Shown here in pieces: positions 3,106 to 13,456 of a stretch of 64,000 nucleotides of DNA. The position numbers and the translations under genes were made by a program. The DNA comes from Armatimonadota bacterium. GTDB lineage: Bacteria > Armatimonadota > Fimbriimonadia > Fimbriimonadales > Fimbriimonadaceae. The notes below the pieces were generated by a model. The model saw only the letters and a program-made list of their open reading frames with translations, had not been told where the DNA came from and did no database searches. Position 1 is the stretch's first letter. Every line of letters begins with the position of its first letter. The stretch spans positions 582,306 through 646,305 of the forward strand of contig JAFDWQ010000001.1 in assembly GCA_018268395.1 (NCBI GenBank), given 5' to 3'.

Positions 3106-4635
3106 TCAGTTGGCGCTCGGGACCAACACTTGGAGCGTGTATTCGGCCCGGGCTTTGGCCCCTGCTTTGAGCCTGGGGCTCCATGTCAGGACCGAGACCG
3201 GATTGGCCTGTCGAAGTCCGGCCGGCGTCTTCTTGACTTCGACCCCCGGACCGGCCGTCGCTTCGCCCGTCGCGGTCTTCACGACCTTCATCTGGACCTC
3301 TTTGCCCTTTCGGTTCGTGACCTCGATGACACCCTTGACCGTCACACGGTCGTACACGTTGCGGTTGCCGTTCTTGACCACGCCGACGACCCGGCCCGTC
3401 TCCTCCTCGGTCGTTTCAGCCGAGACGTCCAAGGCCTTGGTCACACGGACGGAGGTCTCCGCGTTCGGGGACGTGTAGTTCAGCATGTCTTGTCCGAGGA
3501 CTTCTCCGTTCTTCACCGTGAGGACGGCGGCGGTCGTCAATGGTTGCCCGGACGTGTTCTTGAACTTCAAGGTGTGCCACACGTCCAAAGCCTCGGCATC
3601 GGCCCGCCATTCGCCAGAGCTCACGTATCCGTCGGGGATCTCGACGCGGTAGACGGGTTCGTACTCGGCCGTCGCCTTCAGCACGATGTAATAACCCCTT
3701 TCCCCTCGTTTCAGGGTGACCCCGGGCTGCTTGTAGAAGAAGAGGTCTTCGAGCTGTGTCCCGGTCGCTGACGGATCCGGTAGGAATTCGCCGCCTGCGC
3801 TTCCGGTCTCTCCCATCCGCGCGGCGTTCTGCGTCATCGCGTCCCGTCGGAAGTTCCGGTCGGTCGCTCCGTACATCAACGAGTTGACGAACTGGTCGAC
3901 AGAGGCTCCGGATCCGAACGGGTCGGGAACGGCGATGAACCGGACGTTCGGAAAGCCGGTCACCAGGTTCACGGCGACCCCTTCAAGGTCGTTCAGGTCG
4001 TTCATCACCGTCGCCTTGGCGGTGAGGTCCAGTCTCTTGTCGTCGGAGATGTCGATCCGATAGGCGGGGACCCACGTCATGCCTCGTTGAAGGCTCGCGA
4101 CATAGACCTTGCCGTCTCCTTGGCCCCGGATTTCGATCACCGTCCTGGTCGAGGACGCCGGGACTTTGTACGCGAGGGTTTCACCCCCGGCGACGATCCG
4201 GACGATGGACGACTTCATCAACGCCACGCGCTTTTCCCCTTCGCTCGCGAGGACGACCATGGGCCCGTCCGCGCTCAGGACCGTTCCCGTGACGAGAGGG
4301 TTCTGGCCCGGGTATGCCGGTGACGTCTCCAGCGTCAGGCGTTTTCCGACGTTGGCGGACAGCAGTTCGTCCCACGTGACCGCGTTCCGTTCGGACTTGG
4401 TCTCGATCGAACCCGTCCAAGCGCGCTCCAGCTTCACGCTTTCCGATGCACTGATCCAAAGCGTACCGAGCGAAGTGGACACAGGGGGCGTCACGACCGC
4501 CTTCCCGCTATTGAACGGCGCTTCCCGGACGACCACGGCATATCCGTTCTTGAACAGTGACGCGGCGACGATCTTCCCTTCATCGACTTCTTGGGCCTGT
4601 GTTACGGCCAGCAAACTCAACGTTCCCCAAATCAT
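3106..4635 (-). CDS. DUF4139 domain-containing exported protein
   Basis: A 509-residue protein with a short signal peptide (MIWGTLSLLAVTQAQ). The central stretch RGMTWVPAYRID near residue 190 and the beta-rich body with YRVEIPDGYV..GEWRADAEALDVWHTLKFKNTSGQPLTTA match the DUF4139 family, also annotated as mucoidy-inhibitor-like. The family's biochemical role is not established. Residues 200-300 contain an insert rich in polar residues (MYGATDRNFRRDAMTQNAAR). The gene converges on flagellin and ends five bases after its terminator. The start has GGAG about 11 bases upstream. The family assignment is from motif shape, not a search. Confidence 0.7.
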   Translation of the reverse strand: MIWGTLSLLAVTQAQEVDEGKIVAASLFKNGYAVVVREAPFNSGKAVVTPPVSTSLGTLWISASESVKLERAWTGSIETKSERNAVTWDELLSANVGKRLTLETSPAYPGQNPLVTGTVLSADGPMVVLASEGEKRVALMKSSIVRIVAGGETLAYKVPASSTRTVIEIRGQGDGKVYVASLQRGMTWVPAYRIDISDDKRLDLTAKATVMNDLNDLEGVAVNLVTGFPNVRFIAVPDPFGSGASVDQFVNSLMYGATDRNFRRDAMTQNAARMGETGSAGGEFLPDPSATGTQLEDLFFYKQPGVTLKRGERGYYIVLKATAEYEPVYRVEIPDGYVSSGEWRADAEALDVWHTLKFKNTSGQPLTTAAVLTVKNGEVLGQDMLNYTSPNAETSVRVTKALDVSAETTEEETGRVVGVVKNGNRNVYDRVTVKGVIEVTNRKGKEVQMKVVKTATGEATAGPGVEVKKTPAGLRQANPVSVLTWSPRLKAGAKARAEYTLQVLVPSAN

Positions 4636-4710: not shown

Positions 4711-5748
4711 ATGAGCGATCCGGTGAGCGCAGCGTTCGTCGCCCGAGTCGGGCAGTATTCCGAACCGGGAGGGTTCGCTGCGGTCACGGTCGACGAGGCC
4801 CTCAAGACCAGACCTGACAAGAAGGGCCTGACGTGGATCGCCTTGACCGTCCAGGAACCGGAGGCAGCGAAGGACGTCCTCCAGGAAAAGTTCGGTTTCC
4901 ATCCGGTCGCCATTGATGACGCGTTGAGCGACAAAGAGCGGCCGGGCTACTTTTTCGGCGAGGATTACGTCTTTGCGACCCTGTCACTGGTCACGGGGAC
5001 GCAAGAAGGGACGAAGTACACGCACTTGGGGCTCTTCGTTTGTCCCCATTGCCTTGTTTCGGTGACGACTCTGGGCTCCGACTTCGTCAACGAGTGGTTC
5101 GACCGCTGGAAAGCTCATCCGAAGGAGATCGGAACGGCCAGCGACATGTTGATGAGCGAGTTGATCGACGCGGCCATCGACGATTATTTTCCAGCCCTGG
5201 ACCGGATCCAGGGCGAACTCGACAGACTAGAAGAAGGCGTCTACCGTGGGGCGCGGCCCGATGTTTCGGCCGCGATCCGGCTCCGGCGCAACCTCCTCGA
5301 GATGCGTCGCCAGGTCACACCCACGAGGGACATCCTGAACGGCCTCCTCCGCAGGGATTCGCCCGTCATCAAGAGAGAGACGTGGACGTACCTCCAAGAC
5401 TGTTACGACCACACCCTTCGCGTCTTAGAGGGGATCGACCTGAACCGGGACATCCTGACCTCCATCATGGACGCACAACTCAGCGTGACGTCGAACCGGC
5501 TCAACGAGGTGATGCGGAACATGACTTCGATCGCGACGATCCTCATGCTCATGACCCTGGTCACGAGCATCTACGGGATGAATTTCAAGTACATGCCCGA
5601 ACTCGATTGGGCGGACGGCTACTTTCTAGTGCTGGGCGTGTTGGCCGTCATCGGAGTCGGGGGGATCGCCGTCGCGACGAAGGTCGGCTGGTTCACGGTC
5701 AAATGGCCGTGGCGTCTCCGAAGCCGCGGGCCGAAGTCGAACCGTTAA
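4711..5748 (+). CDS. corA: CorA-family magnesium/cobalt transporter
   Basis: A 345-residue inner-membrane divalent-cation channel of the CorA family. The diagnostic GMN motif (IYGMNFKYMPEL) lies at residues 289-291 at the end of the first transmembrane helix (MTSIATILMLMTLVTSIY). The second helix is FLVLGVLAVIGVGGIAVAT, and a basic cytoplasmic tail follows. The N-terminal domain and long stalk helix (DALDRIQGELDRLEEGVYRG, then the RRNLLEMRRQV region) have the usual CorA layout. The ATG at 4711 gives a standard length; upstream in-frame starts overrun the neighbouring promoter. The stop codon overlaps that of the convergent merR gene. Confidence 0.95.
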   Translation: MSDPVSAAFVARVGQYSEPGGFAAVTVDEALKTRPDKKGLTWIALTVQEPEAAKDVLQEKFGFHPVAIDDALSDKERPGYFFGEDYVFATLSLVTGTQEGTKYTHLGLFVCPHCLVSVTTLGSDFVNEWFDRWKAHPKEIGTASDMLMSELIDAAIDDYFPALDRIQGELDRLEEGVYRGARPDVSAAIRLRRNLLEMRRQVTPTRDILNGLLRRDSPVIKRETWTYLQDCYDHTLRVLEGIDLNRDILTSIMDAQLSVTSNRLNEVMRNMTSIATILMLMTLVTSIYGMNFKYMPELDWADGYFLVLGVLAVIGVGGIAVATKVGWFTVKWPWRLRSRGPKSNR

Positions 5749-6014
5749 GCGGCGGGGTCAAAGGTCTGGCGGGCAAGGTGCTTTCGGGCTCCGGCGATCG
5801 AAAACATTTCGTCGCGAAGGAGCCGTTTGAGCGTAAAGACGGTCTGGATGTCCTGCGGCCGGTACCGCCGCTGGCCGCCTTTGGTCCTTTCAGGGCACAA
5901 ATGCCCGGCGAATTCGCGTTCCCAGTACCTCAGGGTGTGGACCTCCACCCCCGTGATGTTACTGGCCATGCTGATGTTGACCGCTTGTCCCGCCTTCGCG
6001 CTCCGGTTCGCCAT
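5745..6014 (-). CDS. MerR-family HTH regulator, DNA-binding domain only
   Basis: An 89-residue protein consisting of a MerR winged helix: ISMASNITGVEVHTLRYWEREF for the helix-turn-helix and RRYRPQDIQTVFTLKRLL for the wing and following helices. No ligand-binding domain follows, so it is a short MerR form like those that act as simple repressors or cofactors. The ATG at 6014 gives the canonical N-terminus; longer in-frame readings extend into low-quality sequence. Its stop codon shares a 4-bp TTAA with the stop of corA. The target is unknown; the divergent 650-residue gene is the obvious candidate. Confidence 0.85.
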   Translation of the reverse strand: MANRSAKAGQAVNISMASNITGVEVHTLRYWEREFAGHLCPERTKGGQRRYRPQDIQTVFTLKRLLRDEMFSIAGARKHLARQTFDPAA

Positions 6015-6194
6015 ATCCTGTCCGCCGACGTTCGGGCGTGTGCCCACATTCCCATATTCGGCAAGTACCCGGCGATTTTCAGGGGCGGGCCCGGGTTCCG
6101 GGAACCACTTCGCGACGTTCCGGATTGAGCCCCATGGGCCGGACAAGACGGAAGATCGCGGACGGTTGTCGTAGAATCTCAGGAACGACCCGAC

Positions 6195-8147
6195 ATGGAC
6201 TCCCCTTGTCCCACACAGGAACAGGCGCTTGCAGAACTGGAGCGGACGGCTCCCGGAGCCCCGTTCTTGGCGCTCGGACAAACGGTCTTCTGGGACGAGC
6301 CGATGAAGGCGGGGGTCGCCCTCAGGTCCCGAGAACTGGGATACGCGCGGTCGTTCGTAGCGGGTGTCCACGACACGGACTACTTCGCGAAGCTGTCCCG
6401 TAGCGGCAAGACGAGCGGCTACGAAGCCCTTCCCCATAACGACACCACGACCCGCGACCTATGGAGCGCTGCCGGCGAGTTTTCGGCCCTTTTCGGGTCG
6501 GAGACGGTGGTCACGCGCGACCTGCTCCAGTCTCACGGCGGCCGGACGACCGAGATCCAGGCCGAGCGGCCCGGATACTTGGACGAACTCACGGAGGCCT
6601 GGGGTTGGCGCGGCATCGTTTCGAACGGCCCGGAATCCAGGATCACGGCCGAAAAGCCTATCGCCCCGCTGATGCCGGTCCTTTTCGAGACTTTCCGTTG
6701 GGCCGTCGAAGAGTCGCTCGCATTGGTCGCCGGCCCGCATCGGACGGACAGTGAGCGGGCCGCAGAGGCGCTGACCTCCCAAGTCTGCGACGCCTCTTGC
6801 GACGGTGCCGGAGACACGCTTTCGGACTTCTTCCAGCGTCTGCTCCCGGTGATGTACCGGGCGGCAGCGGGTCAGAACGTCGAGTTGGACACCACGCGGA
6901 CGACCGAGCTCTTGAAGTTCAACCGCACGACGTGCTCCCTGCCCCGGTTCGAACTCTTCCGGTGTTTCGTCGAACCCGAGACGCGGCCCTTGGCGGTCCG
7001 GGCGTACGACGACGCCATCCGTGGCTCTGAGGTCTACACCCTAGACCGCTTCGGTGCCGGAGCACTGCCGTTCGACCTCTTCGTGCCGGGCCATGGCCGC
7101 GGCACGCTTCGCATCGGAAATCGGGGCGGCGTCGTCATGTCGCCGGAGCCCGTCGGATTCTCTTTCAAGAAGCCTCCGCAGACGCTCGAGGACCTGGCCG
7201 GGATCATCGAAGACCGGTTCGGCCCGGACTGCGTCCTGATCGGAAAGGCCGTGACCCTTATCGGGATGCTGGGCCACGAGTTCGTTTTCGTCTTCCATGA
7301 AGGGGCGAGCAGCTATGTCACACGAAGCCGCGACTTTCATAGGCGCTTGGCCGATGCCGGGCTGGCCTTGTCCCTCAACCCGGTGTTGCGGGTCGACCTC
7401 GAGCCTTGGGACGCGCTCGACGAGTGTTGCGCCTGGTTCCGACTTCCGGAACCGATGCGGCGCCCCTTCGGCGTCGACGAAACGAGCGGCCGGAGCCTGG
7501 CCACGCGGTGGAAGGAGGTCGTAGAGGAACAAAAGACGCTTCTGGACCGACTCAAATCCCTGAGGCGGCCGTTAGACCTCGTCCGGTTCCTCGACGAGAC
7601 CGTCGGGGGCCGATGGAACTGCCTGGCCCGGTGTTATGAGAACCTGCACGAAGACATGCTCGCCCTTCATCGCGACGTGGAAAGCGTGAGGGCCGAAAAG
7701 GCTGTCGTCCTGAAGTCGGTCAAGGACGCGAAACGGACGCTCGACGAGGCCGAATCCGCCAAAGGCCGCCACTGGCGCGACCGGATCTTTGAGAAGGACG
7801 CGACCCCCGACGATCTGGCCGAGCGTGAAGCCCACGTCCGACGGGTCGCCGCCGCCGCCGAACGGGTCGGGGCGTTGGAGCGGGACTGGCGGGACCTGCA
7901 GGCCCGTCAGGACGCCATCGTCTCGTCCGAAGAGGCGACGCGGGCAAAGGAGACCCGGAAGAACATGGCCTTTGAGGCCGAACTGGCCCGCGTCAAGCTG
8001 ATCCGGGAGGCAGTCATGGCGTCGGTCGGTATGGTCAAAGCCGGGCATAGGCCCTCGGCCTGGTGGTTCCCGCTCGTCTGCCCGGACGGAAGTTGGTTCC
8101 GGGCGACGTCCCGCAGGGCGCGATACCGATTGGAGCCCTTGATCTGA
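6195..8147 (+). CDS. uncharacterised 650-aa protein with C-terminal coiled coil
   Basis: I do not recognise this family. It has no signal peptide or transmembrane segment. Residues 1-400 look globular, with many Trp and Cys residues. Notable stretches are an aromatic and Asp-rich N-terminus (FLALGQTVFWDEP, GVHDTDYFAKLS), NRTTCSLPRFELFRCFVEPE near 235-255, a Gly-rich segment (FVPGHGRGTLRIGNRGGVV) near 300, and DALDECCAWFRLPEP near 410-420. Residues about 480-620 are a long charged helix, likely a coiled coil. The tail ends with WWFPLVCPDGSWF. It has AGGA about 10 bases upstream of the ATG at 6195 and stands one base before dapF, so the two are probably co-transcribed. Confidence 0.8.
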   Translation: MDSPCPTQEQALAELERTAPGAPFLALGQTVFWDEPMKAGVALRSRELGYARSFVAGVHDTDYFAKLSRSGKTSGYEALPHNDTTTRDLWSAAGEFSALFGSETVVTRDLLQSHGGRTTEIQAERPGYLDELTEAWGWRGIVSNGPESRITAEKPIAPLMPVLFETFRWAVEESLALVAGPHRTDSERAAEALTSQVCDASCDGAGDTLSDFFQRLLPVMYRAAAGQNVELDTTRTTELLKFNRTTCSLPRFELFRCFVEPETRPLAVRAYDDAIRGSEVYTLDRFGAGALPFDLFVPGHGRGTLRIGNRGGVVMSPEPVGFSFKKPPQTLEDLAGIIEDRFGPDCVLIGKAVTLIGMLGHEFVFVFHEGASSYVTRSRDFHRRLADAGLALSLNPVLRVDLEPWDALDECCAWFRLPEPMRRPFGVDETSGRSLATRWKEVVEEQKTLLDRLKSLRRPLDLVRFLDETVGGRWNCLARCYENLHEDMLALHRDVESVRAEKAVVLKSVKDAKRTLDEAESAKGRHWRDRIFEKDATPDDLAEREAHVRRVAAAAERVGALERDWRDLQARQDAIVSSEEATRAKETRKNMAFEAELARVKLIREAVMASVGMVKAGHRPSAWWFPLVCPDGSWFRATSRRARYRLEPLI

Positions 8148-8148
8148 A

Positions 8149-9003
8149 TTGAGACACGTCCGCTTCTGGAAGACCGAAACGATCGGGAACGACTTCGTCC
8201 TCGTCCGGGCCGAAGACGTCGAAAACCTCGATCTCCCCGCCTTGGCCGTCGAACTCTGCGCACGCCGGACCGGGATCGGTTCGGACGGACTCTTGACCGT
8301 CGCTCGGGCGCCGTTCGGCGCTGTCCTCCGTATGTTCAACCCGGACGGCACGGAGGACTTTTGCGGTAACGGGCTCCGCTGCACGGCCGCCTACGTCCGG
8401 GAGTCGGGCTGGACGGGCGAGCGTTTCCAAATCCTACACGGAGGGCGACGGATCGAAGCCTGGGCCCGGGACGACGGGACGGCCGGGATCGAACTGCCGC
8501 CGGCGGACTTTTCGCCCGAAGCCGTTCCGGTGCTCAGTCAAGGCCCGCTGCTCGACGCGGCCGTCCAAGGTGTGGTCGGGACCGCCGTGAGTACGGGAAC
8601 GGCCCATTTCGTCGTCGTGAGGGACGAGCTTCCCGGCGACGAAGAGTTCGACAGGGTCAGCCCGTTGATCGAGCGAGACCCCCTCTTTCCCGAGCATACG
8701 AGCGTGATGTTCGTCCGGCAGGCAGGCCCGAAGCGCCTCGAACTGAGGATTTGGGAACGCGGGGCGGGCGAGACTTTAGGTTGCGGGACTGGAAGCGCGG
8801 CCGCTGCCGTCGTCGTCGCCCGCAAGACTGGGACCGGAGGGCGGTACACGGTCGTCAATCCAGGAGGAGAACTCGAGGTTTGCCTTGACGACTGGACAGC
8901 GGCCATCGTCTCCGAATCCCGGCCCGTCGTGACCTTCACCGGCACGTTCGTCGTGCCCGTTGCGGCGACGGTCCCGACGGGCGCGCGCGCTCGGCTCGTC
9001 TGA
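8149..9003 (+). CDS. dapF: diaminopimelate epimerase
   Basis: This enzyme converts L,L- to meso-diaminopimelate, the last-but-one step of the lysine pathway, which also supplies peptidoglycan. Length is 284 residues, normal for the family. Both catalytic cysteines are visible: Cys72 in FCGNGLRC and Cys212 in TLGCGTGSA, the latter following the RIWERGAGE block. FNPDGTEDFCGNG and GNDFVLV are further family signatures. Translation appears to start at TTG 8149, one base after the stop of the 650-residue gene, so the two are likely translationally linked. The N-terminus (RHVRFWKTETIGNDF) fits this start. Confidence 0.95.
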   Translation: MRHVRFWKTETIGNDFVLVRAEDVENLDLPALAVELCARRTGIGSDGLLTVARAPFGAVLRMFNPDGTEDFCGNGLRCTAAYVRESGWTGERFQILHGGRRIEAWARDDGTAGIELPPADFSPEAVPVLSQGPLLDAAVQGVVGTAVSTGTAHFVVVRDELPGDEEFDRVSPLIERDPLFPEHTSVMFVRQAGPKRLELRIWERGAGETLGCGTGSAAAAVVVARKTGTGGRYTVVNPGGELEVCLDDWTAAIVSESRPVVTFTGTFVVPVAATVPTGARARLV

Positions 9004-9080
9004 GCCCGCCCGAGAGTCCTCGAAAAAACCGGCATCCGCCTTGCCCATGGGCTCGGACAGTCGGAGTAAAGTGAAGGGGT

Positions 9081-9554
9081 ATGAGGGATTATCGCCTCGA
9101 AGCCCTAGCGGCCTCGCCAAAGATCGTTGAGCGTGTCCTCCGAGTCTTTCCCCGCGACCGCTATGACGAGCGTCCGTACCACGAAAGTTTGACCTGCCGC
9201 GAAATCTTCGCGCTCCTGTCCGATTCCGAGGAGATCGTCCTCGACCGGATCCGCACCGCCAACCGGAAGCCAGGTTCGACCGTCGCATGGTACGAGCCGG
9301 AAGAACGGGCCCGCGACAGGCACTATGCCGAGAAGGAGCCTTTCCATGAAGCCGAAGTCTTCGAGTCGCGGCGTCAGATGACGATCGACTATCTGGAGGC
9401 CCTCGGCCCCGAGGACTTTTCGAAGACGGTGACCTTGGACGGCCACGGCACGTTCACGATCGACGACTATATCGGGCTCGTCACGGCCCACGACCTCAGC
9501 CGGATCGCCGAACTGACCGAGTTCCTCGCCAACGAAGCCGCCACGATCGGCTGA
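9081..9554 (+). CDS. DinB-like four-helix-bundle protein
   Basis: A 157-residue DinB/DUF664-type protein. These are four-helix bundles that usually bind a metal through three histidines, and many act as bacillithiol- or mycothiol-dependent transferases or have no known function. Here the helices carry YHESLTCREIFALLSDSEEIVLDRIR, EVFESRRQMTIDYLEAL and VTAHDLSRIAELTEFL; the last gives the C-terminal His. The first expected histidine is less clear. The ATG at 9081 has both GAAGGGG and an upstream TAAAGT. It converges on enolase, separated by a strong hairpin. A second DinB-like gene lies at 47.1 kb. Confidence 0.75.
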   Translation: MRDYRLEALAASPKIVERVLRVFPRDRYDERPYHESLTCREIFALLSDSEEIVLDRIRTANRKPGSTVAWYEPEERARDRHYAEKEPFHEAEVFESRRQMTIDYLEALGPEDFSKTVTLDGHGTFTIDDYIGLVTAHDLSRIAELTEFLANEAATIG

Positions 9555-9562
9555 CCGGTACC

Positions 9563-9595
9563 GGCCCGCCTCCGGTCGACAGCCGGAGGCGGGCC
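9563..9595. terminator. bidirectional hairpin between DinB-like gene and enolase
   Basis: A perfect 13-bp stem, GGCCCGCCTCCGG (9563-9575) with CCGGAGGCGGGCC (9583-9595), and a 7-base loop. It sits between two convergent genes. There is no long T-run, but the stem is very stable. Confidence 0.7.
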
Positions 9596-9602
9596 GAAAG
9601 GC

Positions 9603-13456
<3,854 letters not shown>

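Follow-up and report, generated by a model that had tools for sequence, protein, structure and literature searches.

Gene X and the DapF-like gene that follows it, hereafter dapF2, are on balance probably the two components of an enzymatic module, known so far from the Armatimonadota, in which an amino-acid epimerase would work together with an ATP-dependent amino-acid ligase. Both genes lie on the forward strand of the window, by which we mean the whole stretch of 64,000 nucleotides that was analysed. X (6195..8147, +) is an open reading frame of 650 codons with an ATG start, and its product, a putative ATP-dependent amino-acid ligase, combines a BshC-like or class I aminoacyl-tRNA synthetase (aaRS)-like fold with a coiled coil. 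Its stop is located one base ahead of the TTG start of dapF2 (8149..9003, +), which codes for a second, divergent DapF-like epimerase, the partner of X. The initial annotation, which had described a 650-residue gene one base before dapF, was exact in this respect.

Distribution and anatomy of X

Homologues of X are present in 58 of the 61 genomes searched (that of the window included) and the 46 that were aligned are 33-63% identical to it, which establishes X as a real gene. The genome of the window has a single copy, its other match being weak (E = 0.097) and limited to the coil. In the whole phylum, a profile search (E up to 0.001; a few matches are weak) detected X in 198 out of 291 Armatimonadota genomes. 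A scan of the GTDB genomes found 51 X loci, whose titles correspond to Armatimonadota, unnamed bacteria and one archaeon; since this search beyond the phylum relied on exact peptide patterns taken from this one X protein, relatives may exist elsewhere. The archaeal locus (L050, JADZEW010000001.1), titled Methanoregulaceae archaeon SJ84, is identical to one from a Fimbriimonadaceae genome (L023, genome G014) and its title looks mislabelled. X has no match in the plasmid collection, and no Rfam match was obtained at E up to 1 within 5600-9700. The frame is intact in most other relatives and broken in Uphvl-Ar2 (L066 6001-7949) and in G035:C1:956389-958325, either by sequencing error or by decay.

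The AlphaFold model of X, built from the alignment of homologues, is confident (mean pLDDT 92.8, pTM 0.85). Residues 1-432 (6195..7490, +) make up an alpha/beta core of class I aaRS-type fold, which reached a mean pLDDT of 90.1 when it was modelled alone. Conservation was scored on 41 sequences drawn from many families. The loop that follows the first strand, GQTVFWDEPMK (residues 28-38; 6276..6308, +), has G28, Q29, T30, W33, D34, E35, P36 and K38 invariant in the 41 rows and, when placed by eye, sits where BshC has GQQ.G...GP....K and the class I aaRS have HIGH. After the second strand, HDTDYFAK (residues 59-66; 6369..6392, +) has D62 and Y63 invariant, H59 kept in 38/41 and D60 in 40/41 rows, and falls, again by eye, at the position of the BshC EDHD. 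Two shorter motifs are GRGT (residues 301-304; 7095..7106, +), in which G301, R302 and G303 are invariant, and GKA (residues 350-352; 7242..7250, +), with invariant G350 and K351; further invariant columns include H81, T86, W90, E95, E103, T133, W138 and R399. Beyond the core, residues 473-618 (7611..8048, +) form a coiled coil of long helices, predicted at 473-531, 538-576 and 579-618, and residues 619-650 (8049..8144, +) a conserved C-terminal cap (RPSAWWFP...W) whose R619, P620, W623, W624 and W634 are invariant in all 41 rows.

The long C-terminal coiled coil announced by the initial annotation therefore exists, at about residues 473-618, but it is not quite the end of the protein, as the conserved cap comes after it. 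Similarly, among the conserved Trp, Cys and Gly clusters that it reported, Trp and Gly are strongly conserved but Cys is not: no Cys of X is conserved, the best one (C346) being kept in 18 of the 41 rows. X has no membrane segment (highest 19-residue hydropathy = 1.57), and a membrane protein was ruled out for lack of any hydrophobic segment.

The second DapF clade and its linkage to X

The genome of the window has two matches to the DapF model (TIGR00652), a housekeeping copy (G000:C1:74469-75284) with 307.5 bits and the X-linked dapF2 with 168.9 bits, the latter still above the NCBIfam equivalog cut-off for DapF (114.65 bits). The two are 35% identical over 254 columns. The neighbour that had been named dapF does match the DapF model, as do all 41 linked dapF2, but it is a divergent second dapF and the housekeeping copy is elsewhere. 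In the phylogeny, which comprises 24 of the 41 linked dapF2, 12 extra dapF2, 31 housekeeping rows (two pairs of them identical) and 4 PDB rows of solved DapF, and which comes from a short search and no bootstrap, a branch with an SH-aLRT of 98 separates the 36 dapF2 rows from the rest.

Like DapF, dapF2 keeps the two catalytic cysteines and most of the active-site frame: none of the 41 linked copies varies at the Cys73 and Cys217 positions, nor at those of Asn64, Glu208 and Arg209, which also read diaminopimelate. In addition to its separate clade and its status as a second copy in the genome, it differs from DapF around these residues. The active-site loop before the first cysteine is shorter in dapF2, and the DapF PROSITE signature (as quoted in the available part of PMC8225329), with its x(4) before the first catalytic cysteine, is found in 33/33 housekeeping rows (29 distinct genes, four of which appear twice) and in 0/53 dapF2. 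The dapF2 side of this comparison has 12 extra copies beyond the linked ones (2 X-linked and 10 apart) and leaves out L172, L174, L175, L176 and L187, which profiles and motifs typed as dapF2. In solved DapF structures, Asn157 and Asn190 hold the distal carboxylate of diaminopimelate together with Asn64 and Arg209 (PMC8225329, available part); the Anabaena equivalents of the two Asn are Asn164 and Asn197 (PMC12039745, available part). Following the H. influenzae numbering, all 44 dapF2 that could be read at the Asn157 position carry Ser or Thr there; at the Asn190 position, 45 of the 49 that could be read carry Ser, 2 carry Thr and 2 keep Asn. Since Asn157 and Asn190 are lost and Asn64 and Arg209 are kept, the pocket predicted from these sequences is changed at the far end of the substrate, not emptied. 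The X-linked dapF2 is probably not the wall/lysine enzyme. Nevertheless, its substrate may still resemble diaminopimelate, as the Asn64, Glu208 and Arg209 positions are invariant, and a diamino-acid relative or conjugate would be a plausible candidate. Copies of the dapF2 type can be told from housekeeping dapF by a simple mark, their shorter loop together with the missing pair of Asn.

The linkage between both genes is widespread. A dapF copy on the same strand is found directly downstream of X in 37 of the 47 GTDB loci that have downstream sequence, and next to X in 27 of 29 loci of relatives, a set that overlaps the former. The ends of X and dapF mostly overlap or nearly touch, these gap sizes being based on the start positions expected from the alignment. 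Among 20 author-picked regions from other families (designated by our own numbers), dapF is downstream of X in 7 (f10, f26 and f37 with one region apiece, f24 and f32 with two), and X is directly upstream, on the same strand, in three of the regions, likewise author-picked, that were fetched around dapF2 (f18, f38, f39). Adjacency thus concerns nine families: f1 (that of the window), f10, f18, f24, f26, f32, f37, f38 and f39. The initial annotation had made a conserved link with dapF the point on which its reading could fail, and the link held in the GTDB loci, in the other-family regions and in the three additional ones. In f6, f11-f16 and f19, X and dapF2 were seen apart, or dapF2 did not adjoin X; in genomes of f6, f11, f12, f13, f15 and f19, dapF2 is on another contig or more than 1 megabase away from X.

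The two genes also co-occur across genomes. At least two dapF genes are present in 174 of the 198 genomes with X, against 10 of the 93 without it, in counts that may include split genes and are uncorrected for shared ancestry; six of these 10 X-lacking genomes are assemblies 64-84% complete from genera that otherwise have X. When dapF copies were typed with two profiles and motifs in 40 author-chosen genomes, dapF2 was found in 19/24 X-bearing and 0/16 X-lacking genomes; some of the typed copies are also part of the typing profiles, the margin is small in G247 (287.5 vs 277.6) and the copy of G274 is partial. Five of the 24 X-bearing genomes (G019, G020, G116, G265 and G270) have no typed dapF2, which implies that X can work without it. 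Genus g29, represented by two small genomes (97% complete), lacks both X and dapF2 and keeps a housekeeping-type dapF. Since typed dapF2 only occurs with X and a few lineages have X without dapF2, this distribution points to X as the enzyme of the core step and to dapF2 as one that tailors a substrate or product.

One might instead suppose that dapF2 just duplicates the diaminopimelate epimerase and that X is an accessory enzyme of lysine or peptidoglycan synthesis, so that the operon would simply belong to ordinary lysine/wall metabolism. The score of dapF2 above the equivalog cut-off, the conservation of the five active-site positions and the class B penicillin-binding protein gene found after X in several f13 genomes would fit such a role. 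Yet, the presence of a housekeeping dapF elsewhere in the genome, the separate clade and changed substrate residues of dapF2 and its restriction to X-bearing genomes among the 40 typed ones make this explanation unlikely.

The fold of X and its relation to BshC and class I synthetases

Neither Pfam nor NCBIfam has a family that X matches, and the scans of both, like that of PADLOC, were empty or gave weak hits, mostly over the coil. A profile search against the sequences of solved structures was equally weak, the best matches being a designed protein (E = 0.023, over the coil) and an adaptin (E = 0.034). The initial statement that X can be linked to no known family holds at this level, but it fails at the level of the fold, which is of BshC/class I aaRS type. 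Structure prediction followed by Foldseek had been suggested together with that statement; the model is confident, and the top Foldseek match is a class I lysyl-tRNA synthetase (LysRS), with E = 0.021 for the full model and 4.6e-4 for the core. BshC is absent from the best 50 Foldseek matches. VIA, which realigned the candidates supplied by Foldseek, ranked BshC first (4wbd). For the full model, BshC aligns over residues 1-645 (Z = 13.5, rmsd = 12.0, 427 aligned) and is tied with LysRS (Z = 12.8) by the own rule of VIA. For the core, the B. subtilis BshC (4wbd) comes first with Z = 14.1, an rmsd of 4.0 and 296 residues, class I LysRS (1irx) is second with Z = 12.2, an rmsd of 3.7 and 248 aligned residues, and the other class I synthetases have Z = 8.1 and below. 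The best 50 rows of VIA are made up throughout of BshC, class I aaRS, cyclodipeptide synthases or pantothenate synthetases. Cyclodipeptide synthases and pantothenate synthetases share the class I aaRS-type fold.

BshC is the putative cysteine ligase in the synthesis of bacillithiol, a protective thiol, where it would attach cysteine to glucosaminyl-malate. In the available part of a 2015 review, it is described as a Rossmann core that carries connecting peptides and is joined to a coiled-coil domain, and no in vitro demonstration of its ligase activity existed at that date (PMC4360819). X resembles BshC (YllA, 4wbd) in its layout, a C-terminal alpha-helical coiled coil placed after a Rossmann-type core that contains inserted segments, and both can be aligned along nearly their whole chains. 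Nevertheless, their identity is only 10-12% in the structural alignments and there is no similarity at the profile level: when X was compared with six BshC sequences profile to profile, the probabilities were 0.2% and 0.1%. The likeness between their first motifs was equalled by 37 of 200 column shuffles, and the GQQ.G...GP....K of the six aligned BshC contrasts with the GQT..WDEP.K of X. Since the profile-profile comparison is null and the first motif does not beat shuffles, X is best described, on the basis of its model, as BshC-like in fold and not as BshC itself.

X has no match to the BshC family profile (TIGR03998 or Pfam). A search for bacillithiol genes that covered BshA, BshB1 and BshC found no match to TIGR04001 (BshB1) or BshC in the genome of the window, and the best BshA match (TIGR03999) has 129.5 bits, far below the cut-off of 273.7; it is thus unlikely, judging from the gene content, that bacillithiol itself is made in this genome. 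Across the phylum, the BshC model (TIGR03998) has matches in 7 of 291 genomes, 4 of them above the cut-off. X as an ordinary BshC was rejected, as the family profile, the GQQ.G...GP....K motif and the bshA/bshB1 companions are all missing. Alternatively, X could be a strongly diverged BshC, responsible for cysteine addition in a thiol pathway of the bacillithiol type, with dapF2 in the operon for other reasons. The first rank of BshC among the structural matches of VIA and the lack of any sampled genome with both BshC and X (X is in 0 of the 7 BshC-positive genomes among the 291) are in its favor; the lack of BshB1 and the low BshA score, the sequence tests, which give no link, and the tracking of X by dapF2, which it leaves unexplained, render it improbable.

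X might also act in the manner of a class I LysRS and load an amino acid onto a carrier, a tRNA or a protein. The core of X does share the catalytic fold of the class I aaRS, and class I LysRS is first in Foldseek with both models and second by VIA (Z = 12.8 and 12.2). However, no HIGH- or KMSKS-like conserved motif was seen by inspection in the X consensus, the model has a coiled coil after the core, at the place where a synthetase would carry its tRNA-binding C-terminal part, and on the core BshC has both a higher Z and more aligned residues. We regard this possibility as somewhat less probable still than a diverged BshC. Finally, the absence of the canonical class I aaRS motifs and a coiled coil suited to protein contacts could mean that X is no longer catalytic and serves dapF2 as a structural or regulatory partner, but this is very improbable given that several lineages have X without dapF2 and that the polar residues D34, E35, K38, D62, H81, E95, E103, R302, K351 and R399 are invariant across distant families, which we take to be unusual for a scaffold.

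The proposed module and other genes at X loci

In the favored two-enzyme module, dapF2 would be an amino-acid epimerase of the DapF family, independent of cofactors and retuned away from plain diaminopimelate, that flips the stereocentre of an amino acid by the two-cysteine mechanism. X would bind ATP and, within its class I aaRS-type core, use it to activate an amino acid, which might be the epimerised one, before joining this amino acid to an amine acceptor, so that both enzymes would act in one pathway leading to a small conjugate or to a building block of the cell envelope. An analogous arrangement is known from poly-D-diaminobutyrate synthesis, in which the gene of a DapF-like racemase, PddB, is translationally coupled to that of an amino-acid-joining synthetase, PddA; in contrast to X, PddA is an NRPS-type synthetase, and PddB also lost the Asn64 and Arg209 positions, both of which dapF2 keeps (PMC8225329, available part). 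HisR and CntK (PMC11602996, available part) and the O-ureido-serine racemase (PDB 7vdy) are also DapF-type enzymes that act on other amino acids, as proposed for dapF2, but their substrates and gene partners differ and the portions of the sources at hand mention no X-like neighbour.

It can be further proposed, more tentatively, that X founds a family of its own, made up of amino-acid ligases of BshC/class I aaRS fold, and that, with its dedicated DapF-type epimerase, it makes an undescribed conjugate of an epimerised amino acid (a thiol of low molecular weight, a cofactor or a component of the envelope) which would replace bacillithiol in most of the sampled Armatimonadota lineages. Among open-licence papers, no description of the X-dapF2 pair was found: Armatimonad occurs with bacillithiol in a paper on mercury genes and with diaminopimelate epimerase in none, those that join diaminopimelate epimerase with class I aaRS appear to deal with other subjects, and the words "epimerase" and "Armatimonad" are absent from the available part of a survey on class I aaRS-like ligases published in 2010 (PMC2922099). 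If the module is real, automatic annotation would miss one of its genes (X) and misname the other (dapF2, which is above the plain dapF cut-off), and a biosynthetic step with an undescribed product would be common to much of a phylum. BshC would then gain a distant second family to learn from, and dapF2 would be a further case of DapF-type enzymes recruited to new chemistry.

The other neighbours of X are less constant. As the initial annotation had indicated, a gene of the MerR family (5745..6035, -; PF13411, 6e-18; the start is an approximate estimate) lies upstream of X and diverges from it; the 230-aa merR reading frame that was listed overlaps X through a too-early start, the MerR domain corresponding to its residues 154-223. 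A merR gene is next to X in 14/51 GTDB loci and 11/30 loci of relatives (partly the same genomes), and in 0/20 of the other-family regions, for which reason a phylum-wide link was rejected. The role in envelope stress or cell-wall control that the first reading had tentatively drawn from merR and dapF was not borne out: the merR link is local, X has no membrane segment and its dapF partner is probably not a wall enzyme. Still, given the penicillin-binding protein gene that follows X in several f13 genomes, a wall role of X may be envisaged.

The remaining neighbours vary by genome and include purE/purK-like genes (by reading), penicillin-binding protein, SpoIIM-like and fabH/fabD genes. Family f13 has several genomes in which X is preceded by a SpoIIM-like gene and directly followed by a gene for a class B penicillin-binding protein, in loci that include L069 7869-9743 and L130 9896-11770 (Pfam was run on L130 only). 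In G020 (genus g18; L027 466-4501), which lacks dapF2, X is between a fabH-like and a fabD-like gene on one strand. No convincing third partner emerged from the gene clusters at X loci and dapF2 regions: an ABC-transporter ATPase, from a large family, is found in 6/71 X loci and 4/16 dapF2 regions, and the other common clusters are in few loci. Where dapF2 is apart from X, the genes that recur around it look, from sequence reading, like those of ATP synthase and chaperonins. An ftsZ-like gene is present at 15 loci, but a link with it was rejected, and no other racemase that could replace dapF2 adjoins X in L024 and L027, from two dapF2-lacking genomes.

In the window itself, an Asparaginase_2 family gene (80-955, -) is about 5 kb from X, and in L067, L068, L072 and L129 its homologues follow X at a distance of some 500 bases. 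The product of 3106-4635 (-) matches DUF4139 just above the curated cut-off (33.6 vs 31.8 bits). In another Fimbriimonadaceae genome (G009), a 500-aa protein (L218 790-2292, -) matches the class I LysRS model with 128.6 bits, below the cut-off, and is perhaps another aaRS-like paralogue.
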